This document shows positions 10,711-52,074 of a stretch of 64,000 bases of DNA, one piece after another (position 1 is the first letter of the stretch; each line of letters opens with the position of its first letter). The DNA is from a virus. A program made the translations under genes and the position numbers. The DNA lies in the IMG/VR virus record IMGVR_UViG_3300022744_000022, positions 124,001-188,000 of that record; one strand, written 5' to 3'. Below the pieces are notes generated by a model, which worked only from the letters and a program-made list of their open reading frames with translations, did no database searches and had not been told where the DNA came from.

Positions 10711-10782
10711 GTCCTCGAAGCTCAACGGTCGAGCAGGCGTTTCTAAAGCGCTGGGAAGCGGGTTCGACTCCTGCCGAGGACG
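10711..10782 (+). tRNA. tRNA with best-fit CUA anticodon (amber suppressor-like)
   Basis: The acceptor stem GTCCTCG/CGAGGAC is a perfect 7 bp. The D-arm is GCTC/GAGC with GG in the loop. The anticodon stem GGCGT/GCGCT (wobbles at both ends) encloses the loop TTCTAAA, giving anticodon CTA. The T-arm GCGGG/CCTGC carries the canonical TTCGACT loop. CCA is not encoded, so it must be added; the window carries a CCA-adding-type enzyme. Shifted anticodon registers pair badly and lack U33. CUA would decode UAG, yet many genes here end in TAG, so suppression may be partial, late or absent. Confidence 0.85.
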
Positions 10783-10817
10783 CAGATGGCTGGACCAAAA
10801 TCCCGCCGGGGCGCTGT

Positions 10818-11729: not shown

Positions 11730-12281
11730 TCACGCGGGGTGGTGCCCGAGCTTCTCCCTCAAGGCCCTGAGCACAGCCTTCGTGACGTACTTGTCCAGGC
11801 TGTCCCAGCCCGTGGGGCTTGGGTGCCGGGCAATCTCCCGGACCGTGGAGCTGGACACGAACGAGAACTTGGGCTTTGTGGGCAGGAAGAAGGTGTCGAG
11901 GTTGGGGGCGAGGCTCGCGTTGGCGTGGGCAATCCCTAGCTCGGCCTCGAAGTCCGTGACGGCCCGCAGACCACGGACGATGACTGTGGCGTGTTCCCGC
12001 TTGCAGAAGTCCACCAGCAGGTCGTCAAAGCTCGTGACCGTGATGGCCCCTGGGTCGATCACGTTCTTGGTTCCCCAGGCTTCGTGGGCCTCTTGCCATT
12101 GCTCGTCAATGCTCGCCTGGATCATCGCGATGCGTTCTTCAAGCGTGAACAACGGCTTCTTGGCCGAGTTCACACCCACAGCGACGACAAGCCTCTCGAA
12201 GGTCTTGGTTGCCCGGTAGATCAGATCCAGGTGACCCTTTGTGATGGGGTCGAAGCTTCCTGCGTAGACGGCTGTGGTCAT
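11730..12281 (-). CDS. coaD: Phosphopantetheine adenylyltransferase
   Basis: 183 residues, close to the 160-170 of cellular CoaD. Diagnostic features are GSFDPITKGHLD (nucleotidyltransferase T/HxGH site), VVAVGVNSAKKPLFTLEER, VIVRGLRAVTDFEAE and a C-terminal SSSTVREIA (ISSTxVR). The enzyme transfers AMP from ATP to 4'-phosphopantetheine, the penultimate step of coenzyme A synthesis. It starts in an ATGA overlap with the gene upstream. A full CoaD is unusual for a phage; with NAD salvage at 15-24 kb it points to broad cofactor maintenance. Confidence 0.93.
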   Translation of the reverse strand: MTTAVYAGSFDPITKGHLDLIYRATKTFERLVVAVGVNSAKKPLFTLEERIAMIQASIDEQWQEAHEAWGTKNVIDPGAITVTSFDDLLVDFCKREHATVIVRGLRAVTDFEAELGIAHANASLAPNLDTFFLPTKPKFSFVSSSTVREIARHPSPTGWDSLDKYVTKAVLRALREKLGHHPA

Positions 12282-15201: not shown

Positions 15202-15222
15202 TTTTGGTTGCCTGTACCAAAA
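15202..15222 (+). promoter_or_regulatory. Palindromic operator upstream of the NAD-salvage operon
   Basis: TTTTGGT, 7 nt, ACCAAAA: a perfect 7-bp inverted repeat ending 6 nt before the GTGTAAGT box that precedes the regulator gene at 15244. Position and symmetry suit a repressor site, perhaps for the winged-helix protein encoded immediately downstream. Confidence 0.55.
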
Positions 15223-15243: not shown

Positions 15244-16410
15244 ATGCAATCGGCAGAACTAACGCTGTACCCCGAAACAGCAGCGATTTACTTCCTGCTC
15301 GACGGGGTGCAGGTCGTCTACGTGGGGCAAACCCAAGATCTACGGAATTCCTTTCAAATTCAGCGCCACCTGGAGAAAACCTATCAACGGGTGCGGTATG
15401 TGCCTGTTGGTAAAGCCGACTTAGATGCCGTCGAGATGGCCTGCATCGTGTACTTCAAGCCAAAGTACAACCGTATGCGCCATACGAAAAAGATCTCCGC
15501 TGAACAAGCTGAGACCAAAGTGCGGCGATTGCTCTCTGACGACGATCTTGACCAACTCGGAGTGACTCGCCGTGCTCCTTGTAAGTACGAGTATGATTAC
15601 CCACGCCCCTCAGTCACCGTAGACTGTGTGGTGTTTGGTTTCGATCTTGCCGACAAGAGAGACCCCCTCAAGGTTCTCCTGATCCAGCGTAACTCGGAGC
15701 CTTACGCAAAATGCTGGGCTATCCCCGGAGGATTCGTTGAAACCAACGATATTGGTGGGGGTGAGAGCCTTGAAAGGGCTGCTCAGCGTGAGTTGGAAGA
15801 GGAAACTGGCCTTCGTTTAGAGTTTGAACAACTCCCCCCTTCCTCACAGACACATGTACCGCATGTGTTAAAAGACGGGACGACCCTTCCCCCTAACTGG
15901 TACCCCGATGACGAACCGCGACACGTGCCCGCCTATTTAGAGCAACTCTACACTTTCGGTGCGCCTCGACGTGATCCGCGTGGTCGGGTGATCTCAGTAG
16001 CCTATCTCGTATTGGTGCGTGCCGCAGACTACGTACCACAGGGTGGATCAGATGCGAGCCAAGCCAAGTGGGTGGGCATTCAGGACGCTCTAACTCGAAA
16101 CTTAGCGTTTGATCACGCTGAGGTTCTAAGTAAAGCGATCACCCGACTCCAAGGTAAGATCCGCTACGAACCGATCGGATTCAATTTGTTACCCGACGAA
16201 TTCGCACTCTCGGACTTGCGGGATCTCTACGCGGGCGTTTTGCAACGCGAACTGGACCTGTCGAACTTTCGCAAGCGCGTGTTGGCCACCGGGGTGCTAT
16301 CGGAGACAGGCCACCTGACCGAAGGTTCTGGGCGGCCCGCAGCACTCTACCGCTTCAACAAGACCGCATACGACCAAGCCGTCAAAACCGGCTTCAACTT
16401 CGAGATCTGA
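15244..16410 (+). CDS. GIY-YIG / Nudix / winged-helix (NrtR-like) fusion regulator
   Basis: 388 residues with three parts. Residues 1-80 resemble a GIY-YIG domain (AAIYFLL...VVYVGQTQDLR, then RHLE). Residues about 120-290 are a Nudix domain with GGFVE and RELEEETGL (Nudix box R-E-U-x-E-E-x-G-U). Residues about 300-388 are a winged helix with GVLSETGHL. Nudix plus winged helix is the architecture of NrtR, the ADP-ribose-sensing repressor of bacterial NAD genes. It heads an operon with NadV and an NMNAT, behind a palindrome. The Nudix part could also hydrolyse ADP-ribose. The GIY-YIG addition is unusual. Confidence 0.85.
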   Translation: MQSAELTLYPETAAIYFLLDGVQVVYVGQTQDLRNSFQIQRHLEKTYQRVRYVPVGKADLDAVEMACIVYFKPKYNRMRHTKKISAEQAETKVRRLLSDDDLDQLGVTRRAPCKYEYDYPRPSVTVDCVVFGFDLADKRDPLKVLLIQRNSEPYAKCWAIPGGFVETNDIGGGESLERAAQRELEEETGLRLEFEQLPPSSQTHVPHVLKDGTTLPPNWYPDDEPRHVPAYLEQLYTFGAPRRDPRGRVISVAYLVLVRAADYVPQGGSDASQAKWVGIQDALTRNLAFDHAEVLSKAITRLQGKIRYEPIGFNLLPDEFALSDLRDLYAGVLQRELDLSNFRKRVLATGVLSETGHLTEGSGRPAALYRFNKTAYDQAVKTGFNFEI

Positions 16411-16423
16411 AAGAGGTGTGATC

Positions 16424-17866
16424 ATGGCGTGGGAAGACCAAGTGATCGAGGGTAATGTCGCGGGGGATCCCGACGATCCGTACGCGATGGAATACAACCC
16501 CATCACCGACACGGACTCGTACAAGTTCAGTCACCCCATGCAGTATCCGACAGGGCTGACTTCGGTGTTCAGCTACATCGAGTCGAGGGGTGGCCACTAC
16601 GGGGTGACCCAGTGGGCTGGCATGCAGATGATCCTCAAGCGTGCGTTGTGTCGCCGCGTGACGATGAAGCACGTCATCAAGGCCGCAGCGTTCGCGGCAG
16701 CTCACGGCGAACCCTTCCCCTTCGAGGGTTGGAAGCGCGTCGTGGAAGTCCACAACGGCTGGCTCCCGCTGCGCATTCGTGCGGTCGCGGAAGGCACCGT
16801 GGTTCCGACCGGCAACATCCTGGCCGCCATCGAGAGCACCGATCCGCAGTTGCCGTGGATGAACTCGTGGCAAGAGCCCAGGCTCATGCGTACCTGGTAC
16901 CCCACTGCGGTCGGGACCAAGAGCTTCTTCGCCAAGAAAGAGATCTTGGCGGCCCTCAAGCGGTCCGCTAACGATGCGATGACCGAGCTGTACTTCAAGC
17001 TCCACGACTTCGGTGCGCGGGGTGTCAGCTCGTGGGAATCGGCGGGCCTTGGCGGTGCATCCCACCTGTTCAACTTCAAGGGCTCAGACACTGTGACTGG
17101 CATCGAGTTTGCCAATCACTACTACAACGAGCCGATGGCCGGATTCTCGATCCCTGCGGCCGAACACAGCACCATGACCATTCGTGGCTTGAGTCACGAG
17201 CTGGATCAGATGCGGCACATGCTCAACCAGTTCGCTAAACCCGGGGCAACGCTTGCTTGCGTCTCGGACTCGAAGGACGTTTTCTACGCCGTCGAGAATT
17301 ACTGGGGCGACATCTTGCACGATCAGGTCCGCAACTCGGGTGCGACCGTCGTGATCCGGCCGGACTCGGGTGACCCGTCAGAGGTCAACCTCAAGTTGCT
17401 CCAAATCTTGGAGCGCAAAATCGGCATGAGCACGAACCTCAAGGGCTACAAGGTTCTGCCGAAATACTTCCGGCTCATCCAAGGCGATGGTAACGACGAC
17501 GAGATCTCGATCCGCAAGGTGCTCAACACCCTGATGGACAATGGGTACTCGGCCTCAAACATCGCGTTCGGCATGGGCGGCGGGCTCTTGCAGAAGGTCG
17601 ATCGCGACATGCAAAAGTTCGCCATGAAGGCGTCACAGTCGATCATCGACAACGAAGTGATCGATGTTTACAAAGACCCGATCACCGACCAAGGCAAGAA
17701 GTCCAAGCGCGGCCGTCTCGACCTCGTGTTCCGCGACGGCGAGTACAAGACCGTGCAAGGTGACCAGCCGGACAGCTTGCTCATTCCCGTGTTCGAGAAC
17801 GGCAAGCTGCTCAAGGACTGGACGCTCGCTGAGGTGCGTAAGAACGCCGAAGCGACCCTGCTCTAA
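16424..17866 (+). CDS. nadV: Nicotinamide phosphoribosyltransferase (NAMPT/NadV)
   Basis: 480 residues, the normal NAMPT length. Features are DSYKFSHPMQYPTG near the start, AAEHST with the catalytic His at about 248, VIRPDSGDP (PRPP/phosphate site) and FGMGGGLLQKVDRD. It makes NMN from nicotinamide and PRPP, the first step of two-step NAD+ salvage. The second step (NMNAT) is encoded at 22705 in the same operon. The ATG at 16424 is preceded by AGAGGTG. Phages use NadV to rebuild NAD+ after host defences consume it (the known NAMPT-NMNAT reconstitution pathway). Confidence 0.96.
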   Translation: MAWEDQVIEGNVAGDPDDPYAMEYNPITDTDSYKFSHPMQYPTGLTSVFSYIESRGGHYGVTQWAGMQMILKRALCRRVTMKHVIKAAAFAAAHGEPFPFEGWKRVVEVHNGWLPLRIRAVAEGTVVPTGNILAAIESTDPQLPWMNSWQEPRLMRTWYPTAVGTKSFFAKKEILAALKRSANDAMTELYFKLHDFGARGVSSWESAGLGGASHLFNFKGSDTVTGIEFANHYYNEPMAGFSIPAAEHSTMTIRGLSHELDQMRHMLNQFAKPGATLACVSDSKDVFYAVENYWGDILHDQVRNSGATVVIRPDSGDPSEVNLKLLQILERKIGMSTNLKGYKVLPKYFRLIQGDGNDDEISIRKVLNTLMDNGYSASNIAFGMGGGLLQKVDRDMQKFAMKASQSIIDNEVIDVYKDPITDQGKKSKRGRLDLVFRDGEYKTVQGDQPDSLLIPVFENGKLLKDWTLAEVRKNAEATLL

Positions 17867-17884
17867 CCCAGGATCCGTGTAACC

Positions 17885-18811
17885 ATGATGAAGACACGCC
17901 GAATCGATTCTCGGGACGAAAACGTTTCTAAGTACGTTTTCGATTTCGACTCAGCCGTAGCTGAGTCGGTGCTGTACAAGTACCCGACCTACGAAGCTCG
18001 TACGGTCATCTGCTGCTCCACGCAGAGCGGTTGCCCAGTGGGCTGCCGTTTCTGCGGGGCAGGAGATGCCTTCGTCCGCTCTCTGACAGCAGACGAAATC
18101 GTGGGACAGGTCCAGCACTTGTTTGCGGACCGCAACATCGACCCCACCAAGGTCGAACGCTGCCAGATCATGTTCATGAGCATGGGCGAGCCGCTCTTGA
18201 ATCTCGCGGGGCTCGCACCTGCAATTCGACGGCTGAACCAACTCTACCCTAAGGCTGCTCTGCTTATCAGCACCTCAGCCCCCAAGGTGGACTACGCTCA
18301 GGTGCGTGACCTCTCGGTAGAGGTTGACAAGGTGGGGCTCCAGTTCTCAGTGCATGAGAGTCTGGATGAGCGCCGTAACGCTCTTGTCCCGTTCAAGGCG
18401 AAGCTGACGCTTGCCGAGATTGCGGTTGAAGGTGAGGCCTGGTTCGAGGCCACGGGCCGTCAGCCCTTCTTCAACTACTGTGCGCATTCCGAGAACGTGT
18501 CGGATCAAGATGCCGACCGGCTCATGGCGCTCTACAAGCCGGGGATCTGGCAAGCCACGATCAGTGTTGTGTGTGAACGCGACGAATCGGTGGCGGCAGC
18601 CAACCAACGGCAACGAGAACTCGCTGCAAACTTCATGACGAAGTTGAGTGAACGAGGCTTCTCCACGCGGTGCTTTGACCCGGCGGGTCAAGACGATATC
18701 GGGGGCGGGTGCGGCCAACTTTGGTTCGTCCAAGATTGGATGCGCCGTCACCCCAAGCTTGCCAAACGCAGTGTGGGTCACGGCCTGCCTGTGATCCACA
18801 CCCCAACCTAA
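17885..18811 (+). CDS. RlmN/Cfr-like radical SAM methyltransferase
   Basis: 308 residues. The [4Fe-4S] motif is C-x3-C-x2-C (Cys50, 54, 57) within SGCPVGCRFCGAG, followed by MSMGEPLLN, and a C-terminal QDDIGGGCGQLW whose Cys (about 277) matches the second catalytic Cys of RlmN and Cfr. These enzymes methylate adenosine 2503 (C2 or C8) of 23S rRNA, and RlmN also tRNA. It is shorter than cellular RlmN (about 380) and lacks most of the N-terminal accessory domain. It lies 18 nt behind nadV. Possible roles are ribosome or tRNA modification during infection. Confidence 0.85.
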   Translation: MMKTRRIDSRDENVSKYVFDFDSAVAESVLYKYPTYEARTVICCSTQSGCPVGCRFCGAGDAFVRSLTADEIVGQVQHLFADRNIDPTKVERCQIMFMSMGEPLLNLAGLAPAIRRLNQLYPKAALLISTSAPKVDYAQVRDLSVEVDKVGLQFSVHESLDERRNALVPFKAKLTLAEIAVEGEAWFEATGRQPFFNYCAHSENVSDQDADRLMALYKPGIWQATISVVCERDESVAAANQRQRELAANFMTKLSERGFSTRCFDPAGQDDIGGGCGQLWFVQDWMRRHPKLAKRSVGHGLPVIHTPT

Positions 18812-18825
18812 CAACGGAGAACACC

Positions 18826-18963
18826 ATGGGCGGAGATACGTACCTCGACAAGATTGCAGAAGGCGAAGCAGCGCCGGAACCTCAAACCCCCGAACCCGAG
18901 CCCCAGCCGGTCGGGACGGCGGCACCCCTCGAAACCCCCGAGGCTGAGACCCCTCAGCCGTAA
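18826..18963 (+). CDS. Short proline/glutamate-rich peptide
   Basis: 45 residues starting MGGDTYLDKIAEGE, then Pro-Glu-Thr repeats. A GGAG site precedes the ATG. It begins with the same MGG-x-x-Y/W pattern as the VWA gene that follows. Probably an unstructured operon member; function unknown. Confidence 0.6.
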   Translation: MGGDTYLDKIAEGEAAPEPQTPEPEPQPVGTAAPLETPEAETPQP

Positions 18964-18992
18964 GTCAACAACCAACCTGAAAGGCAACTACC

Positions 18993-19970
18993 ATGGGCGG
19001 CACAATGTGGAGCAGTGAGCTGTACGAAGATCGTGCAGCAACCAGAGCAAAGACGGGGACCCCGACGTTTGCTCATGACGCAGCAGTGCGTACGGGCCGA
19101 ACGGCCAAGAAGGCTCACGCCTCGCTTGAGCCGCACGGAGTCAAGGTGCGGGAGTCCAGGGACTCGGACGCACACCCGAATTCGTTGGCTATCGGCGTCG
19201 TCTTTGACGAGACGGGTTCGATGCACACGATTCCGGGCATCGTGCAGAAGAAGCTGACCAAGCTCATGGAGATCCTGCTCGACAAGAAATACTGCGAGGA
19301 CCCTCAGATCCTCGTGGGCGCTGTCGGTGATGCACGCTCGGACAGCGTGTCGTTGCAGATGGGGCAGTTTGAGTCGGGCATCGAGATCGATGAGCAGCTC
19401 GGGCACATCTACCTCGAAGCCAACGGTGGTGGCGGGGAACCCCAGGAAAGCTACCAGAACGCGCTGTACTTCTTCGCCAACAAGACCAGCATCGATTGCT
19501 GGGAGAAGCGGGGCAAGAAGGGCTTCCTGTTCATCATCGGAGACGAGAAGCCCTACGGGGCATCCACGCCGGAGGAGATCAACCGGATCTTCGGCGACGT
19601 GGTGCAAGAGAACGTGCTGACCACGGACTTGGTTCGCAAGGTCAAGGAGCGCTACCACGTCTTCTACCTGATGCCCAGCGGCACCATGCACTACAAGGAG
19701 CCGGGCATCGTCAACGCCTGGAACAGCCTTCTGGGTGCTGAGAACGTGATCATGCTCGATGACCCCAACCTCGTGGCTGAGACCATCGGGGCTACCGTGG
19801 GTATGGTTGAGAATGCGATCTCGCTCGATGCGATGACCACCGATCTCGGTGGCGGCAAGGATGCCCTGGTGGTCCGTGCAGCTCTGGATCGTCTCGCCCC
19901 GGCCGCTGCATCGGCCAAGGGTGGCGTCCCGGCGGCAACGACCAAGGGCGGCTCGAACGTTCGTCTGTGA
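18993..19970 (+). CDS. VWA-domain protein
   Basis: 325 residues. A MIDAS motif D-x-T-G-S (Asp72: DETGSM) opens a von Willebrand A domain, with further pieces in ILVGAVGDARSD, a Gly-rich GGGGEPQESYQ and FLFIIGDEKPYG. The first about 65 residues are basic and unstructured, and the C-terminus has Gly/Ala/Lys low complexity. VWA proteins bind a metal ion and a protein partner, often an AAA+ ATPase; none is seen here. Its position between RlmN-like and PurA-like genes does not explain its role. Confidence 0.85.
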   Translation: MGGTMWSSELYEDRAATRAKTGTPTFAHDAAVRTGRTAKKAHASLEPHGVKVRESRDSDAHPNSLAIGVVFDETGSMHTIPGIVQKKLTKLMEILLDKKYCEDPQILVGAVGDARSDSVSLQMGQFESGIEIDEQLGHIYLEANGGGGEPQESYQNALYFFANKTSIDCWEKRGKKGFLFIIGDEKPYGASTPEEINRIFGDVVQENVLTTDLVRKVKERYHVFYLMPSGTMHYKEPGIVNAWNSLLGAENVIMLDDPNLVAETIGATVGMVENAISLDAMTTDLGGGKDALVVRAALDRLAPAAASAKGGVPAATTKGGSNVRL

Positions 19971-19972
19971 TC

Positions 19973-20008
19973 CCTAGGGGCCGGGGGCAAGCACCTCCGG
20001 CCCCTTCA
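19973..20008 (+). terminator. GC-rich hairpin after the VWA gene
   Basis: AGGGGCCGG pairs with CCGGCCCCT across a 12-nt loop, directly after the VWA stop codon. There is no T-tract, so it may attenuate rather than terminate, leaving the downstream operon genes partly expressed. Confidence 0.45.
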
Positions 20009-20014
20009 AACCCT

Positions 20015-20200
20015 ATGCCAAAACGCAAGTTCAAGAACCCGAAAGCTAAAGCCTGGGACGTTGCCGCTCATGGCCTAGCGGTGTGGCTGGGTGAACGTTG
20101 TTTGGCGAACGACGAAACGGTCCAGCACATCAAAGACCACATCCTCCCGTCCATGAGGCGACGGGCTGAGATCATCGAGAGGAACACCAAACATGGGTAA
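20015..20200 (+). CDS. Small basic protein
   Basis: 61 residues, Lys/Arg-rich N-terminus (MPKRKFKNPKAKAW) then a helix pair. Its stop overlaps the start of the PurA-like gene by 8 nt, so the two are translationally coupled. No family recognised. Confidence 0.65.
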   Translation: MPKRKFKNPKAKAWDVAAHGLAVWLGERCLANDETVQHIKDHILPSMRRRAEIIERNTKHG

Positions 20201-21521
20201 CGCGATTCTTCTGGCTGGTCTTGGCTTCGGGGATGAGGGCAAGGGCTCCGTCATCGACCACCTTACGCACACCACCGGCGCTACCCTGGTCGTTCGCTAC
20301 AACGGCGGGGCACAAGCGGCCCACAACGTGATTACGAACCGAGGCTTCCACCACACGTTCGCTCAATTTGGATCCGGCACCTTCGCAGGGGCCAAGACTC
20401 ATCTGAGTCGGCACATGCTCGTGAACCCCAACAACCTCTTGAACGAGGCCAAGGCTCTTGAGGGGCTCGGGTTCGACCCCCTGGACCTGATCACTCTTGA
20501 ACGAGACGCCCTCGTCACGAACATGTTCCAGGTAACCGCGAACCGTCTTCGTGAGGCTCACCGTGGGAAAGGGCGTCACGGGTCCTGTGGCCTTGGAATC
20601 GGGGAAACGGTGGCGGATGCTCTCCAGCACCCGGATCAAGCGTTGCGTATCGGTGACCTCCAGGATCGCGAGCTGACCCGCAAGAAGCTCACGTTTTCCC
20701 GTGACCTAAAGTTCGCCGAGTTCGGTGGACGAGGACCTTCTGTAGATCACCCCTTCAGCGATCAGCGTCTTGAATTCTACCTAGACCTCTACGCGGACTT
20801 CGCCAAACGCTATCAAATCGTGGACCGGCAGTACCTTGAGCAGCAGCTCAAGCAAGAAGGCACCGTGATCTTCGAGGGGGCTCAGGGCGTCCTATTGGAT
20901 CAGGACTACGGATTCCACCCGTACACAACGTGGTCCGACACGACCTTCGGCAATGCCCACGACCTGCTCCAAGGGTTCGATGGGCCGGTACGTAAGATTG
21001 GCGTGCTCCGGGGCTACATGACCCGGCACGGTGCGGGACCTTTCCCGACCGAGCTACCTGACGACGTTCGATTGGACTGCGACATCCAAACGGACCTGCA
21101 CAACAAGTGGGGTGAATTTCAACGGCACTTCAGGGTCGGGCATTTCGATGCCGTGTTGGCCCGTTACGCCTTGGAAGTCATTGGGGGTGTGGACGAGTTG
21201 GCGATCACCAACCTCGATAAGCTCGGGGCAAAGCCGCAGATCTGCCCAAGCTACCGTGACGACTTCGGTCGCAAAGTTCACCGCATCGCGCCCAAGAAGC
21301 TCGATGACTTCATGTTGGAACAAGGTGCCCACCACTGGACGCGGATCTTACCCACCTTGAAGCCCAACTACGTGACGCTGCCTGATCGAGTCAGCATCGT
21401 AGACTGCATCGCCGAAGAACTTAGAACCTCTGTGACGCTGTGCTCAGTCGGACCCAAGACCCAGCATAAGTGGCCAACCCGTTACCTCCGAGACCTACAG
21501 GCGAGCCAATGGAACTCCTGA
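20193..21521 (+). CDS. Adenylosuccinate synthetase-like enzyme (PurA/PurZ family)
   Basis: 442 residues, usual PurA length. GFGDEGKGSVID carries the family P-loop with the catalytic Asp kept (PurZ enzymes of 2-aminoadenine phages usually replace it). Other marks are NGGAQAAHNV with the active-site His, FEGAQGVLLDQDYG and ITNLDKL. The substrate-contact segment (HHTFAQFGSGT) departs from housekeeping PurA. The reaction joins aspartate to IMP or a related nucleotide using GTP. No MazZ, DatZ or PurB is visible, so a role in modified-base synthesis cannot be claimed. Sits in the NAD operon. Confidence 0.88.
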   Translation: MGNAILLAGLGFGDEGKGSVIDHLTHTTGATLVVRYNGGAQAAHNVITNRGFHHTFAQFGSGTFAGAKTHLSRHMLVNPNNLLNEAKALEGLGFDPLDLITLERDALVTNMFQVTANRLREAHRGKGRHGSCGLGIGETVADALQHPDQALRIGDLQDRELTRKKLTFSRDLKFAEFGGRGPSVDHPFSDQRLEFYLDLYADFAKRYQIVDRQYLEQQLKQEGTVIFEGAQGVLLDQDYGFHPYTTWSDTTFGNAHDLLQGFDGPVRKIGVLRGYMTRHGAGPFPTELPDDVRLDCDIQTDLHNKWGEFQRHFRVGHFDAVLARYALEVIGGVDELAITNLDKLGAKPQICPSYRDDFGRKVHRIAPKKLDDFMLEQGAHHWTRILPTLKPNYVTLPDRVSIVDCIAEELRTSVTLCSVGPKTQHKWPTRYLRDLQASQWNS

Positions 21522-22705
21522 CCATCGCCACCAACATCAAGGCTGCCAAGTGCCCTGAGGACATCTTCGGTGGCCCTCCGGATGGCAGCACCGTTACGCC
21601 GGTCTACCGCCAGCTCATCCTCGTGATCCACCCTGATCACTTCGATGGAAAGCCCACAGAGCTGGCCACTGCCACGGAAGCATTCCGGCTCCTGGCTCAG
21701 CTCCGGGGTGAGGCCGAACGCAAGATCAAGGCGGGCAAGTACGGCCAGAAGAAGGTCAAGGCACCGCCACCCAAAGAGCCCTTCCGCCCCTCAGTGGTTG
21801 AGGCCAACGGCAAGCGCTACATCTTGACGGATCAGGTTGCCTCGGGGGACCTGTGCGACATCTTCCTGTGTACGATCTCCAACGGATCTGCCGACCACAA
21901 AGCCATTTTTAAGATCGTCAAGAACGGGGCTGACAACGATCTCGTTGAAAACGAGATCAAGGTACTTGCGAAGCTCCACGCGCCTGGGGTCAAGTTCGAC
22001 GAACGCTTTTTCCCGAAAACGAACGACTCGTTCGTCATCCGGGGACCCGGGTTTCAACGTCAAGTCAACGTCCTGTCGTGGTTTCCAGAGCACCGAGGAC
22101 TTGACGAGGTGCTGAGAGTCTTCCCGGACGGCATCGACTACCGTGACATGGTGTGGATGTTCAAACGCATCCTGCACGGCGTAGGGTTCGCCCACGAGAA
22201 CCAGATCGTACACGGGGCCCTGATCCCGCCTCACATCCTGATCCACCCGGTGGACCACGGGGCCAAAATCATCGATTGGTCGTATGCGGTGGACATTACG
22301 CCTAAAGTCAAGGCGGTCAAACCCAAGACTCACCGCAGCCTTTACGACCTCTTGGACGCGGACGACATCCTTACTCCAGACCCGCACGTCAAGGCAATCA
22401 GCGCCGACTACAAGTTGTATTACCCGCCGGAGATCCTTAAGAAAGAGATCCCGACGCCCGCCAGCGACATTTACATGGCAGCCAAGTGTGCGGTAGCCTT
22501 GGTGGGTGGTGACTTGAAAACGAACGCAATGCCCAACGAGATCCCTGGAACTGTCCGGGCCTTCTTTGAGCGTTGCCTTCATGCGGTTCCGGCCAAGCGT
22601 CCGCAGAACATGTGGGACGCCCATGAGGAGCTGGACCGAATCTTGAAAGCAGCCGTGGGCAAACGAACTTACCGACCCTTCCCCATGCCTGAGGTACGCC
22701 CGTGA
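21509..22705 (+). CDS. J-domain / protein-kinase-like fusion (probable pseudokinase)
   Basis: 398 residues from the ATG at 21509, which overlaps purA by 13 nt. Residues about 20-75 form a J-domain-like segment with HPD (His41). Residues about 95-390 resemble a Ser/Thr kinase: AIFKIVK (Lys135), a VHGALIPPHILI catalytic loop (about 233-244) that lacks the usual Asp after His, and IIDWS in place of DFG (Asp256). The missing catalytic Asp suggests a pseudokinase or altered chemistry. It could target DnaK clients or act as a scaffold. Confidence 0.75.
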   Translation: MELLTIATNIKAAKCPEDIFGGPPDGSTVTPVYRQLILVIHPDHFDGKPTELATATEAFRLLAQLRGEAERKIKAGKYGQKKVKAPPPKEPFRPSVVEANGKRYILTDQVASGDLCDIFLCTISNGSADHKAIFKIVKNGADNDLVENEIKVLAKLHAPGVKFDERFFPKTNDSFVIRGPGFQRQVNVLSWFPEHRGLDEVLRVFPDGIDYRDMVWMFKRILHGVGFAHENQIVHGALIPPHILIHPVDHGAKIIDWSYAVDITPKVKAVKPKTHRSLYDLLDADDILTPDPHVKAISADYKLYYPPEILKKEIPTPASDIYMAAKCAVALVGGDLKTNAMPNEIPGTVRAFFERCLHAVPAKRPQNMWDAHEELDRILKAAVGKRTYRPFPMPEVRP

Positions 22706-23904
22706 TGATCCGTTATGAAGACCGCCTCGCACAGCTCCGAGAGCTGCCCGTACGGATCTACTGTGCGGCAGCCGGGGCAGGAGCTGGGATTCAACAGATC
22801 CTCTGGAACCCCGTCGGAGCATCGGCCTATCTGGCTGGGGCTGCCTTCCCGTACTCCAAGGAGTTGTCCACAGACTTCTTGGGTTTCCAGCCCCCGAGCT
22901 TTGTGTGCCTTGATGAAGCCATCGACCTCGCGATCTCGTCCTATCTCAAGGCCGACAACGGGGATCCGACCAAGCAGCCCATCGGCCTAGGTTTGACCGC
23001 TGCGGTCGCCACGGCAGTGCAGCACCGTGGGGATCACCGAGTTCACGCGGTCGTGATCACGAGGGATCGTGTGCTTGCCTCGGAGATGACGCTCCCCAAA
23101 GAGGGTCCGCACGTTCGTAACCGAGACGGCAGCATCGCGGACACGCTCGGGATCGAATTGATTTTGGCGGCAGCCAACCTGATCCCCGAGCCCGTCCGAG
23201 AGGCATACTTGGAAGCCACCGACGGACAGTGCCTCAAAGACATCACGCAGAGGGCCCGCCAGCACTTCCTGAGCCGACCGCTGTTTACCCGGTACGGTCA
23301 ACGCCTTGAGGCACCTGCGGGGAACCTGACGCTGTTCCCGGGCAACTTCGACCCGCCTCACGAGGGGCACTTCGCCAACGCGGGCGAAGAAGTGACGTTC
23401 CAGATCACCGCGAGCCCGCCGCACAAGCCGGGTTTGAGCCTCACGGACATGTTGGGCCGCGTTCGCCACTTCCGGCACAAGCGGGACGTGCTGTTCATGG
23501 AAGGCGGGGCACTCTACCTGGAGAAGGCCCGGAGGTTCCCTGGTTCGACTATCATCCTGGGGAGCGATGCCCTCGAACGGATGCTTGATCCCAAGTGGGG
23601 CGTGGAAGTGCTGCCGTTGCTGACCGAGTTCCGCGAGCTGGGGACCAGGTTCAGGGTTGCGACACGTGAGGGGGACGAGTTCGCACGGCTCCCGATCCCA
23701 GGGACCTTCCGAGACATGTTCACTGAGCTGCCCAAAACCCCGTACGCGGGCTTGAGTTCGACGCAGATCAGAGAGGGCGTATTGGCCCCCACCTCTCACG
23801 CGCCCCCCGGCACGGGCCAAGTGTGTGGTGCCGCTAATGATTGCACCCGGTTCAAAGGACACACAGGGCAGCACGCCAATCTCTACAACCAGCGTGTTTG
23901 GTAA
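22705..23904 (+). CDS. CinA-C-like / nicotinamide-nucleotide adenylyltransferase fusion
   Basis: 399 residues. The first about 165 resemble the CinA C-terminal (PncC) fold, with GLGLTAAVATAV and HAVVITRDRV; family members deamidate NMN or are inactive. From about residue 205, LFPGNFDPPHEGH (HxGH at 219-222) and a C-terminal SSTQIREG mark a NadD/NadM-type adenylyltransferase that makes NAD+ from NMN and ATP. With nadV it completes a two-step salvage route. Ends at the convergent gene 23905. Whether the CinA part is active is unknown. Confidence 0.85.
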   Translation: MIRYEDRLAQLRELPVRIYCAAAGAGAGIQQILWNPVGASAYLAGAAFPYSKELSTDFLGFQPPSFVCLDEAIDLAISSYLKADNGDPTKQPIGLGLTAAVATAVQHRGDHRVHAVVITRDRVLASEMTLPKEGPHVRNRDGSIADTLGIELILAAANLIPEPVREAYLEATDGQCLKDITQRARQHFLSRPLFTRYGQRLEAPAGNLTLFPGNFDPPHEGHFANAGEEVTFQITASPPHKPGLSLTDMLGRVRHFRHKRDVLFMEGGALYLEKARRFPGSTIILGSDALERMLDPKWGVEVLPLLTEFRELGTRFRVATREGDEFARLPIPGTFRDMFTELPKTPYAGLSSTQIREGVLAPTSHAPPGTGQVCGAANDCTRFKGHTGQHANLYNQRVW

Positions 23905-24555: not shown

Positions 24556-25110
24556 ATGAAAGACCTCCGGACAACCGAATTTGTGCGCGCCTGGGGCGTC
24601 AAGGATGTGCCCACGGCGTCAGTCTCCCACGGGGCTGTACGTCCAGGCAGTTACCCGGCGTTCGCCTTGCTGGGCTGGGTGGAGCAGCGGAAAGCGGGCT
24701 GGCCCGTCGTGGGGCTCCGCCTGACCTTGCTCCAGAACGAGCTAGACGAGCCTGCTGGCGGGCTCACGATGGGCCTACCGCTCACGCCAAAGAGCGAGCG
24801 GCACGTCTGCTGCTTCTTGCAGGACCTAGGCTGGGATGGCCGCGTGTGGCCGTACAAGGACCATGGGTGGCCCGAGGGTACGCCCGATGAGGACGGCTTG
24901 CTACTCCTACTCAAGGCATCCAAGCTCGGGGCCACCCTGACGTTCCCCTCGGACCCCGAGAAGGGTACCCCGACAGTCAGGATCCCAGTGCTGCAACGAA
25001 CCGGGACCTTCTCGGTGGCACCCTTCGGCGAAGAAATCGTGCCCCGGTACCTCGATGCTCTCAGGACCCTTGCGGCAAACCCCACACCATTCAAATCGGA
25101 TTGGGCATGA
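24556..25110 (+). CDS. Unknown protein upstream of NADAR
   Basis: 184 residues, mixed alpha/beta, with WPVVGLRLTLLQNELDEP and VCCFLQDLGWDGRVW. No family recognised. Its TGA overlaps the ATG of the NADAR gene, so the two are coupled and may act together. Confidence 0.7.
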   Translation: MKDLRTTEFVRAWGVKDVPTASVSHGAVRPGSYPAFALLGWVEQRKAGWPVVGLRLTLLQNELDEPAGGLTMGLPLTPKSERHVCCFLQDLGWDGRVWPYKDHGWPEGTPDEDGLLLLLKASKLGATLTFPSDPEKGTPTVRIPVLQRTGTFSVAPFGEEIVPRYLDALRTLAANPTPFKSDWA

Positions 25111-25613
25111 CCATCAGCTTCTATGGGGAGACCAACGAGCGGTACAGTTGGCTCTCGAACTTCCACGTGGCGATCTTCACACTCCAAGGGCACCAATGGG
25201 CTTCGACGGAACACTTCTACCAAGCCATGAAGTCTGAGGACCCCGAGGTTCAGCTCCAGATCAGGAGCGCCGCGACCCCGGGACAGGCTAAGCGGTTGGG
25301 TTCCAAGTGTGAACGGCGTGCTGATTGGGAAGAACCCGTAGGTACCCCTGCGTTGCACGACATTTTTCGAGATGACCGGGGGATCGTGGTGGAACTCGTG
25401 AAGGACCACTTCATGTACCAAGCGCTCACCGCGAAGTTCACGCAACGTCCCGAGCTACGTGAGGCGTTGATCTTGACGGGCACTGAGGAGCTGCAAGAAG
25501 CCTCACCCAAGGACTACTACTGGGGCGTGGGAGCCGACGGTTCGGGGCAGAACAAGCTCGGTCGAATGCTCCAGCTCGTGCGGGCTCAACTACCGAACCG
25601 CTGGTCACCGTAG
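25107..25613 (+). CDS. NADAR-domain protein (YbiA-like N-glycosidase)
   Basis: 168 residues. The fold is marked by GETNERYSWLSNF, WASTEHFYQAMK, GQAKRLGSKC and DYYWGVGADGSGQNKLG. NADAR proteins act on riboflavin intermediates or remove ADP-ribose from guanine in DNA, countering DarT-type toxins. In this phage, downstream of an NAD-salvage operon, reversal of ADP-ribosylation is an attractive inference. Coupled by ATGA to the gene at 24556. Confidence 0.92.
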   Translation: MTISFYGETNERYSWLSNFHVAIFTLQGHQWASTEHFYQAMKSEDPEVQLQIRSAATPGQAKRLGSKCERRADWEEPVGTPALHDIFRDDRGIVVELVKDHFMYQALTAKFTQRPELREALILTGTEELQEASPKDYYWGVGADGSGQNKLGRMLQLVRAQLPNRWSP

Positions 25614-26344: not shown

Positions 26345-27529
26345 TTACGCTTTGCCTCCGAACCGTGCTTTGGCTTGTTCTTCAACTTGCGACTCCAACT
26401 CACGGGGATTCAGGGCTAACTCAGGGTTTTGCAGAAGCAGCGACCGGGCCATGGGTACAAGCGCTCCGCGATCTTGCCCCTTAAGCTGATACACCTCAAA
26501 CAGACGCACCTGATCGATCTCCGGCTTCTTTAGCATCTCAAGAAAACGCTTCTCGAAGGCGGGATCATCTGCGTGGGACAACAGAACTTCCCTGAGTCGC
26601 GCAAGCCCGTCCTGCGACAAGAATGACACAGGCGTGCGAACGGTCCACCCCAGATCCAGCAGGTCCAGTAGTAGGTGGATTTCTTGTTCGGGCAGCCCAC
26701 GGCTGAGCGCTGTGGCGAACCCGGGTTCTTCCGCGAGCATTTCCTTGAGCACTTCTCCGAGCCCCAAGTCATGTAGCAGCTCTACTGAGCGGCGAGGCTG
26801 TGGCGACTCCAAGATGTCCTCGACAAGGATTTTGCGAACCGCATCCCAAGGCATCTGTTTAAGCTTGTGCGCGTTCTGCTGAATGCTCGTCCGCACATCG
26901 GGCGAGATTTTGAACCCGTACTTCGCCACGAACTTGACAGCACGAAGCATCCGGGTCGGGTCATCCGAGAACGTCTTGTCGGGGTCCACCGGCGTGGTGA
27001 GCAGGCGATCCTCAAGGTGCTGTCGGCCGTTGCCGAGAAGGTCCAGCACTTCGGCACGATCAGGTCCGTGCTCCAGGTCTAGAAGCCGCCAGAGTAGCGT
27101 GTTGAACGTGAACTCGCGACGCTGCAAGTCTTCTTGGATGGTCGCAGGTTCGACCATGTGCGGCTTGTAACCTTTGCCCGAGGGATCGCCGTAGCTCTCT
27201 TTGCGAGCGTTGGCGATCTCCAGGACTTCACCCTTGAGATCATGCCCGTCAAGGACCCACGAGTCCGCGACGGTGAGGATCGCCACCCCATATTGGTTAG
27301 TCGTCAAATTCGTGCGGGTCGGAATGATCCGTTGGAGCTGCTCCGCGAACCACGCAGAGTCCTTCCTACCCCCGAGAGCTACGGAATCGACCACTACGTC
27401 CACGTCTTTAGGCGCAAGGCCCATCAAGTGGTTTCGTACTGCGCCACCGACGATGTAGACGTGTTCTCCAACGCCAAGGCGCTTGGTGGCCAAGGACAAG
27501 AAACGTAGGAGTGCCGTTATTTTTGTCAT
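26345..27529 (-). CDS. CCA-adding tRNA nucleotidyltransferase / poly(A) polymerase head
   Basis: 394 residues. The class II nucleotidyltransferase signature is GGAVRNHLMG (residues 28-37) with D-x-D (42-44); RREFTFNTLLWR and DDPTRMLRAVKFVAKYGF follow, the flexible-loop and neck motifs that choose CTP/ATP. CCA enzymes add CCA to tRNA 3' ends; the phage tRNA at 10711 lacks an encoded CCA. The C-terminal half has no HD motif. A separate HD protein at 57632 resembles the body of E. coli-type CCA enzymes, so the function may be split over two genes. Confidence 0.88.
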   Translation of the reverse strand: MTKITALLRFLSLATKRLGVGEHVYIVGGAVRNHLMGLAPKDVDVVVDSVALGGRKDSAWFAEQLQRIIPTRTNLTTNQYGVAILTVADSWVLDGHDLKGEVLEIANARKESYGDPSGKGYKPHMVEPATIQEDLQRREFTFNTLLWRLLDLEHGPDRAEVLDLLGNGRQHLEDRLLTTPVDPDKTFSDDPTRMLRAVKFVAKYGFKISPDVRTSIQQNAHKLKQMPWDAVRKILVEDILESPQPRRSVELLHDLGLGEVLKEMLAEEPGFATALSRGLPEQEIHLLLDLLDLGWTVRTPVSFLSQDGLARLREVLLSHADDPAFEKRFLEMLKKPEIDQVRLFEVYQLKGQDRGALVPMARSLLLQNPELALNPRELESQVEEQAKARFGGKA

Positions 27530-50655: not shown

Positions 50656-52074
50656 ATGTCCAAGACCCTTGGGGCCCTGCGTGCCCTGTTGCGTGAGGGG
50701 TTGTCCGTCGAACAAGACGGCAACCTCGTGTGTGTTCGGCCTCTAAACCACCCTGACGGCCTCCCGGCGGAAGTGCTGCTTCCCCGGGATCACCCGCTCG
50801 AACCGAAGGCTCTCAAACAGCTCTCGGATTTCGCACAGGTGCGTCACCCGGCAGGCGGGGAGGTCCTGCAAGCGTTCGCCACCCCGGACTTCCACCCGGG
50901 ATCCGTGGTGCCGATCGGGTGCGTCTTGGCCACCAGCCAAGACATCGTGATCCCCGATGCCATTGGGACCGATATCAACTGCGGAATGCGTATGCATATT
51001 GCGGACTTGACGGTCGATCAGCTCATGGCCAAAAAGCCCGAGTGGCTCAAGGCCATGAAGGGCGACCTGTTGATGAGCACTCGGGACCTTCCGATGTCGG
51101 TGGCTCAGATCAGGGCGATGTTCCGCACAGGACCGTTTGGGTGGCTCGAAGAAGTCGGGAAGCGGCCCTTGGGTATGCTGGGGCGCTCGGACCTCAGGCA
51201 GCTCCAGGGGGAGCTAGACCAGAGCTTCGGGCTCGGGAGCCTCGATGGGGATGACCGTTACGCCCCACAGGAAATGATGCCGGAGGACCGGGACACCATC
51301 CGGGACTGCTTCATCGGCACCATTGGGGGCGGCAACCACTTCGTGGAACTCCAGGTTGTCGAGGAGATCTTGGACAAGGGTTGGGCGTTCCGGTGGGGGA
51401 TCAGGAAGAACCAGATCGCCGTGATGGCCCACTCAGGGTCCCGTCGAGTTGGCATCATCGTGGGGCAGTCCTGGATGCAGCATGCCCGGGAGCGGTGGCC
51501 CCAAGGAGTCCCGCACCCTGAGAACGACATCTTCGCCCTGCACGGCAAGGATGCCTTGGCCTACGTGACCGCGATGAACACGGCAGCCAATTACGCGGCG
51601 GTGAACCGGCTCTTGCTTGTGGAGATGGTCCGGGACCGGCTCCGCCAGAGCTTCCCCGGGCTTGAGCTACCGCTGGTGTTCGACGCCCCGCACAACATCG
51701 TGACCCAAGAGAACGGGTTCATGATCCACCGGAAGGGCGCTACGCCTGCCCACCTGAATCAGCCGGTCCTGATCCCGGGCTCCATGGGACAACCGAGCTT
51801 CTTGATGGTCGGGCACGGCAACCAACGCTTTCTACAGTCAGCCTCGCACGGGGCGGGTCGGAAACTGTCCAGGCGAGACATGCACCGGCTCGACAAGCAA
51901 GGCCTGGACCTTGGGCTCGATGCCGTGGAGTGCATCACGCTCAAGAATGAGCGGCTCGTGCAAGAAGCGCCCGCTGCCTACAAGGACATCGGTCCCGTGG
52001 TGCAGGTGCAGGCTGAGGCGGGGATTGCTTCGCCGGTAGCGAGGATGCGGCCGTTGCTGACGTTCAAGGGGTAA
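50656..52074 (+). CDS. rtcB: RNA-splicing ligase RtcB
   Basis: 472 residues, usual RtcB length. Metal and GTP-site motifs GTDINCGMR, GTIGGGNHFVE, HSGSRRVG, HRKGAT, PGSMG and the catalytic SHGAGR are all present. RtcB joins RNA 2',3'-cyclic phosphate or 3'-phosphate ends to 5'-OH ends using GTP and Mn, repairing cleaved tRNAs or rRNA. With the classical RNA ligase at 44457 the phage can seal both kinds of break. Confidence 0.96.
   Translation: MSKTLGALRALLREGLSVEQDGNLVCVRPLNHPDGLPAEVLLPRDHPLEPKALKQLSDFAQVRHPAGGEVLQAFATPDFHPGSVVPIGCVLATSQDIVIPDAIGTDINCGMRMHIADLTVDQLMAKKPEWLKAMKGDLLMSTRDLPMSVAQIRAMFRTGPFGWLEEVGKRPLGMLGRSDLRQLQGELDQSFGLGSLDGDDRYAPQEMMPEDRDTIRDCFIGTIGGGNHFVELQVVEEILDKGWAFRWGIRKNQIAVMAHSGSRRVGIIVGQSWMQHARERWPQGVPHPENDIFALHGKDALAYVTAMNTAANYAAVNRLLLVEMVRDRLRQSFPGLELPLVFDAPHNIVTQENGFMIHRKGATPAHLNQPVLIPGSMGQPSFLMVGHGNQRFLQSASHGAGRKLSRRDMHRLDKQGLDLGLDAVECITLKNERLVQEAPAAYKDIGPVVQVQAEAGIASPVARMRPLLTFKG

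Follow-up and report, generated by a model that had tools for sequence, protein, structure and literature searches.

How might a phage make nicotinamide adenine dinucleotide (NAD+) from nicotinamide, and when would it do so? The question is raised by a run of genes at positions 15244-23904 of the stretch analysed here (the window: 64,000 nucleotides, bases 124001-188000 of the 208,486-base virus record IMGVR_UViG_3300022744_000022, which is linear and possibly incomplete). A codon-usage gene caller placed 101 genes in the window, covering 84% of it. Genes for a DNA polymerase, helicases, a thymidylate synthase-like protein, a DNA methyltransferase and a ClpX-like protein are located elsewhere in the record, which is consistent with a large tailed phage. 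Every gene of the run lies on the plus strand, and the genes are contiguous, with short gaps or overlaps between them (Table 1). They encode an NrtR-like regulator, NadV, an RlmN/Cfr-like radical S-adenosylmethionine (SAM) protein, a VWA protein, a PurA-like protein, a pseudokinase and, last, a CinA-like domain fused to a nicotinamide mononucleotide (NMN) adenylyltransferase (NMNAT).

We propose that the run forms an operon, presumably co-transcribed, for regulated NAD+ salvage by the phage. It probably comprises the salvage enzymes, an NMN-binding pseudo-deamidase carried on the NMNAT, a repressor of the ADP-ribose-responsive type and, alongside, a second module of VWA, PurA-like and pseudokinase genes. 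All genes named by an earlier sequence-only reading of the locus are found there on one strand by domain, PHROG, NCBIfam and Foldseek matches; it had left unnamed the kinase-like gene and a NADAR gene just beyond the run. Its comparison of NadV and NMNAT behind an NrtR-type regulator with NAD+ reconstitution by Nampt and Nmnat also stands, and this module recurs in several other, diverged phages.

From nicotinamide to NAD+

NadV matches NAPRTase (E=2e-49), NAMPT_N (6e-20) and PHROG 448 (E=5e-136). Its motif GMGGGLLQKVDRD is the Nampt-type glycine motif, without the signature (GSX..TRD, with aromatics) of Namat, another member of the Nampt superfamily (PMC12774641). Judging from families and conserved motifs, NadV would join nicotinamide to phosphoribosyl pyrophosphate (PRPP), yielding NMN, which would then be adenylylated to NAD+ by the NMNAT domain that the last gene encodes. 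The simplest predicted route is then nicotinamide to NMN to NAD+. Neither an NAD_synthase domain nor a Pribosyltran_N domain (PF13793; PRPP synthetase/Adps) was found in the 208-kb record, each search being positive in 14 of 14 control genomes; the lack of both disfavours a deamidated route as well as the pathway known as NARP1. As a separate observation, a stand-alone glutaminase-like protein (G000 84572-85336; L008 6572-7336) has a best PHROG named NAD synthetase and contains no synthetase domain.

Sequence models detect the nucleotidyltransferase half of the fusion alone (CTP_transf_like, 1.1e-4, residues 211-358); PF02464 matches the CinA-like half at E=0.007 only, under the cut-off. The fold was recognized in an AlphaFold2 model made from a 15-sequence input (mean predicted local distance difference test, pLDDT, 84). 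The top 21 PDB matches of the CinA-like half in Foldseek are all CinA/PncC proteins, and against A. tumefaciens CinA/PncC (2a9s) it gives E=9e-6 and a template modelling (TM) score of 0.76 on the target. Profile comparison with PF02464-family proteins gives E of about 1e-7, with the full Ser/Lys dyad present in one of the four templates (L037). The NMNAT half is conserved across the fusions in its GxFDPPHxGH, GxD, aromatic-site and SSTxIR features.

The positions of PncC residues were mapped onto 15 fusions by means of the PF02464 profile alignment. The general-base lysine (Lys63) is missing from all of them, with Ser in its place in the window, and the nucleophile position (Ser31) holds Ala in the window protein; the others have Ser, Thr, Ala or Val there. 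Residues that contact NMN are kept: G46, S48, T105 and R145 in 15/15 and Y58 in 14/15. The domain has seven invariant columns, and five of them are PncC ligand positions (hypergeometric P=1.6e-7, a generous and partly circular value, because conserved columns drive the alignment). In A. tumefaciens PncC, S31A/K63A mutants are inactive (PMC5384747). In the E. coli enzyme, S29A and K61Q bind NMN (dissociation constant 37-125 uM) with no turnover, and Y56A and R142A fail to bind it (PMC8231969).

Because the residues that hold NMN are kept and the hydrolysing Ser/Lys pair is lost, and because published dyad mutants bind without deamidating, we read the domain as a pseudo-deamidase. Its residues suggest a natural NMN binder of the S29A type. 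Most likely, NMN is bound there and left intact, and the domain serves the NMNAT by holding its substrate or by allosteric action. The sequence-only reading had treated the whole fusion as the enzyme that converts NMN to NAD+; the CinA fold and the NMNAT motifs hold, and the CinA part probably adds no enzymatic step, being instead a pseudo-deamidase that binds NMN. Such a domain would be the natural counterpart of the hand-made mutations that turn PncC into an NMN binder, and it yields a clear binding prediction. No relevant report of a CinA-NMNAT fusion was found in the open-access literature.

Regulation, recurrence and purpose of the operon

Gene 1 matches the Pfam families NUDIX (E=3e-17) and NrtR_WHD (E=2.7e-21), and its best NCBIfam match is 'ADPR responsive transcriptional repressor' (E=1.3e-43, under the equivalog cut-off). 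Small variations aside, gene 1 and its counterparts in loci L002, L027, L032, L021 and L014 retain an intact REUXEEXGU part of the Nudix box. The protein is most likely the operon repressor, which would release its DNA when ADP-ribose rises, for example when NADase effectors fire. With its near-intact Nudix box the same protein may, in addition, split ADP-ribose and so supply ribose-5-phosphate, a precursor of PRPP. In M. smegmatis NrtR three Nudix-box residues are changed and hydrolase activity is undetectable (PMC6800001). An inverted repeat, TTTTGGTTGCCTGTACCAAAA, located just upstream of gene 1 is a candidate autoregulatory operator.

The Nudix and winged-helix parts of gene 1 had been named from sequence together with a GIY-YIG part, and the latter is the less firm. 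The first ~105 residues gave no match in a Pfam search and a weak match to GIY-YIG in hhalign. The model of this domain has a pLDDT of 66; its top four Foldseek matches are UvrC GIY-YIG domains, but with E of about 0.7-1.1. In L036 and L046 the same part is a separate, overlapping open reading frame (ORF). On this weak fold evidence the domain is probably GIY-YIG-like.

About a dozen further viral contigs contain the fusion, and several bacterial genome bins have full-length relatives of it. NrtR/Nudix, NadV and fusion genes are found together in L002, L003, L027, L032, L033, L049 and L101; the close relative L002 has exactly this three-gene form, nadV overlapping the fusion gene. The gene order of the run, minus the RlmN-like gene, is repeated in a 10.8-kb contig (L046) and in a 512-kb phage (L036/L215): GIY-like, Nudix-winged-helix, NadV, small ORF, VWA, PurA, kinase, fusion. 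Further, L047 has the order regulator-VWA-NadM-NadV-PurA-kinase, followed by NADAR, and L144, L147 and L167 have regulator-NadV-VWA-PurA-kinase.

Several observations weigh against a regulated salvage operon of the proposed kind. Firstly, the absence of NadE from a linear, perhaps incomplete record is no proof, and the preference of the NMNAT domain for NMN or nicotinic acid mononucleotide (NaMN) cannot be read from its sequence. Secondly, a promoter scan of the region found no sigma-70-like promoter, and no operator motif is shared across the upstream regions of the compared loci, only unlike inverted repeats; those upstream of the gene 1 counterparts in L002, L027 and L032 each differ from the repeat in the window. 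Thirdly, two records (L030, 485 kb, and L031, a 37-kb fragment) carry the fusion without NadV, and full-length or near-full-length fusions are present in bacterial metagenome-assembled and single-amplified genomes (L015-L019, in Opitutaceae, SAR202, SAR86, Bythopirellula and Pseudomonadales bins). Canonical NadD was over the cut-off in four of the five full-length bacterial hosts tested, so in most of them the fusion is an extra gene. In bacteria and in the NadV-less records, the fusion may act outside phage salvage. Finally, the VWA-PurA-kinase set occurs without NadV in most loci, that of Gizmo included.

An anti-NADase role of the operon, which the sequence-only reading had raised for defences such as Thoeris-type systems, is plausible. 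It might instead serve to boost metabolism in general for replication when hosts are starved, with no part in counter-defence, and we take this as a serious possibility that falls somewhat short of being probable. Phages of medium and large size commonly carry NadV (PMC9503650), the PurA-like and RlmN-like genes of the run would fit nucleotide and translation support, and carriage of the fusion by bacterial bins points the same way. However, the operon is headed by a member of an ADP-ribose-type sensor family and adjoined by the NADAR gene, and the published phage pathways NARP1 and NARP2, as summarized in PMC11984713, replenish NAD+ against NADases.

The VWA, PurA-like and kinase genes

The best match of the RlmN-like protein, which has CPVGCRFC and CGQL motifs, is TIGR00048 (E=3.5e-29; 102 bits versus a curated cut-off of 290). 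Because this gene is missing from the L036/L215 and L046 operons, it stands outside the conserved core and is probably a passenger. The VWA protein, for which a Pfam search gave no match, matches PHROG 2971 at E=4e-60 and conserves the DxTGS motif, similar to a metal-ion-dependent adhesion site (MIDAS). The PurA-like protein matches PF00709 (E=3.9e-66), and its relatives retain the catalytic-Asp motif wherever it is readable. Most kinase members read lack the HRD Asp and have a HGAxxPPH-type loop. A reading of the PurA-like protein as PurZ, an enzyme of the 2-aminoadenine (Z-genome) pathway, was rejected: in PurZ the catalytic Asp is replaced by Ser, here it is kept, and the scores are 39.6 bits for PurZ versus a cut-off of 300, and 185 bits for PurA.

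In a scan of VWA relatives (80 loci), a PurA-like gene is close by in 78 and a kinase gene in 45. Bixzunavirus phages such as Gizmo have kinase-VWA-PurA genes, and NadV is absent from the whole Gizmo genome. NadV lies within 9 kb of VWA in nine of the 80 loci versus about 2.4 expected, a rough estimate that uses the 33% prevalence of NadV from PMC9503650. The nine include near-duplicates; counting seven, the same estimate yields P of about 0.01. Because the VWA-PurA(-kinase) set is also found where NAD genes are missing, it appears to be a separate, widespread and uncharacterised phage module that was joined to NAD salvage more than once. We note the set both at window positions 18993-22705 and in loci L136-L214. 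In the proposed mechanism the three proteins might maintain the purine pool, which is the least certain step. No relevant report of a VWA-PurA phage pair was found in the open-access literature. A widespread but uncharacterised pair, often with a pseudokinase, is tied in some phages to NAD+ metabolism, which makes its function testable.

Do these genes belong to the NAD+ response at all? The VWA, PurA-like, pseudokinase and RlmN-like genes could be unrelated passengers between nadV and the NMNAT gene, a view we consider possible but rather doubtful. It fits L002, where none of the four stands between nadV and the fusion gene, and the many NadV-less loci. Mere insertion of VWA-PurA-kinase was indeed our first conclusion from L002, and it was revised in view of the operon shared by L046 and L036. 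The order regulator-NadV-VWA-PurA-pseudokinase-fusion kept in L046 and L036/L215 speaks against passengers, as do the combinations of NadV and regulator with VWA-PurA-kinase in L047, L144 and L147, the kinase adjoining the fusion in L031 even though NadV is lacking there, and the excess of NadV near VWA. The sequence-only reading, which had suggested that VWA, PurA and RlmN join one response, is thus supported for the first two by the order recurring in two phage contigs, and not supported for RlmN, absent there. A bolder view would make the CinA-like domain a natural NMN sensor gating the NMNAT, the entire cassette one response that detects NAD+ breakdown and restores pyridine and purine pools, and VWA-PurA-pseudokinase an undescribed phage system in itself; we consider this combination unlikely, if worth stating.

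Downstream of the proposed salvage operon, the NADAR gene is 89% conserved in L002. NADAR near NadV/NadM has been described in phages (PMC9503650), and PADLOC gave nothing beyond weak kinase and NADAR-type matches. The window also contains a tRNA with a CUA anticodon (10711-10783, plus strand; tRNA-Pyl by ARAGORN, tRNA in Rfam), possibly an amber suppressor; amber recoding was rejected, as TAG ends 51 of 246 predicted genes. Two RNA repair genes are present, a poly(A) polymerase/CCA-type nucleotidyltransferase (26345-27529, minus strand) and an RtcB-type RNA ligase (50656-52074, plus strand).

Table 1. Features of the proposed NAD+ salvage operon and its borders (window positions)
Feature	Position	Strand	Basis or remark
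Inverted repeat, candidate autoregulatory operator	15202..15222	.	7-bp perfect arms, just upstream of gene 1; operator role putative
Gene 1, GIY-YIG-like N-terminal domain	15244..15560	+	Weak fold match to UvrC GIY-YIG
Gene 1, Nudix + winged-helix (NrtR-type) part	15561..16410	+	REUXEEXGU part of Nudix box intact
NadV, Nampt-type nicotinamide phosphoribosyltransferase	16424..17866 (alternative start 16418)	+	Family matches, motif
RlmN/Cfr-like radical SAM protein	17885..18811	+	Outside conserved core
Small ORF, 45 aa, before VWA	18826..18963	+	Small ORFs at same place in L036, L046
VWA-like protein	18993..19970	+	MIDAS-like DETGSM, PHROG 2971
Small ORF, 61 aa, between VWA and PurA	20015..20200	+	Gizmo also has small ORF there
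PurA-like adenylosuccinate synthetase	20193..21521	+	Catalytic-Asp motif GDEGKG
Kinase-like protein	21509..22705 (alternative start 21470)	+	Non-canonical catalytic loop HGALIPPHIL
Fusion, CinA/PncC-like N-terminal domain	22705..23325	+	NMN-contact residues present, Ser/Lys dyad gone
Fusion, NadD/NMNAT-type nucleotidyltransferase domain	23326..23904	+	GNFDPPHEGH, GSD, W, SSTQIR; extra low-confidence tail
NADAR protein (N-glycosidase family)	25107..25613	+	Downstream of run, associated; preceded by 24556-25110

Other routes and comparison with known systems

Could the enzymes of the run do something else? The nucleotidyltransferase half might work on another substrate, for example phosphopantetheine as in CoaD. 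Its PDB profile matches mix NadD and CoaD at similar E-values, and a separate CoaD-like nucleotidyltransferase gene is present at window positions 11730-12281 (minus strand; 97% identical in L002). Against this, the half has the NadD-like GxD, aromatic site and SSTxIR motif, is fused to an NMN-site domain and repeatedly adjoins NadV, which makes a CoaD-like activity improbable.

Slightly more improbable still is a CinA half that acts as a live NMN deamidase. The path would then lead from nicotinamide over NMN to NaMN and nicotinic acid adenine dinucleotide, to be finished by the host NAD synthase. The CinA/PncC fold is present, the nucleophile position is still Ser, or is Thr, in some fusions, and the other half resembles NadD, which prefers NaMN. 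However, the window protein has lost both nucleophile and base, the latter being missing in all 15 fusions, either single change kills PncC activity (PMC5384747, PMC8231969), and the record holds no NAD synthase. A NARP1-type pathway, which would convert ADP-ribose-pyrophosphate and nicotinamide directly to NAD+, can practically be dismissed: NadV does belong to the superfamily that includes Namat, but its motif is that of Nampt (PMC12774641), an NMNAT is present and the Adps/PRPP-synthetase domain is lacking.

We thus return to salvage through NMN and compare it with what is known. Gizmo gp267-270 include adjacent homologues of the kinase, VWA and PurA-like genes, but without NadV in that genome and in the order kinase-VWA-PurA instead of VWA-PurA-kinase. 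Like NrtR, the regulator combines Nudix and winged helix and comes first in an NAD operon; unlike it, the protein is phage-encoded, probably has a GIY-YIG-like N-terminal domain and keeps the REUXEEXGU lost in M. smegmatis NrtR (PMC6800001). With PncC/CinA proteins, including inactive paralogues such as E. coli YfaY, the fused domain shares fold and NMN-contact residues. Those proteins are known alone or fused to MocF/COG1058 (PMC3855486), whereas the domain in the window has lost the Ser/Lys dyad and is joined to an NMNAT.

NARP1 (Adps + Namat) resembles the operon in rebuilding NAD+ in phage by an enzyme of the Nampt superfamily, and differs from it in Adps and in the Namat signature (PMC12774641). 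The closest likeness in plan is to NARP2, since a Nampt-type NadV and an NMN adenylyltransferase, whose activities in the window are predicted from motifs, are encoded together in a phage. Here, however, the adenylyltransferase is of NadD type and shares its protein with an apparently dead CinA domain, and an NrtR-type regulator and the VWA-PurA-pseudokinase set are added. The phage adenylyltransferases named in a survey of phage NAD genes are NadM (with Nudix) and NadR (PMC9503650). The operon would therefore represent a further way for phages to make NAD+ from nicotinamide, through an adenylyltransferase architecture that this survey does not name.

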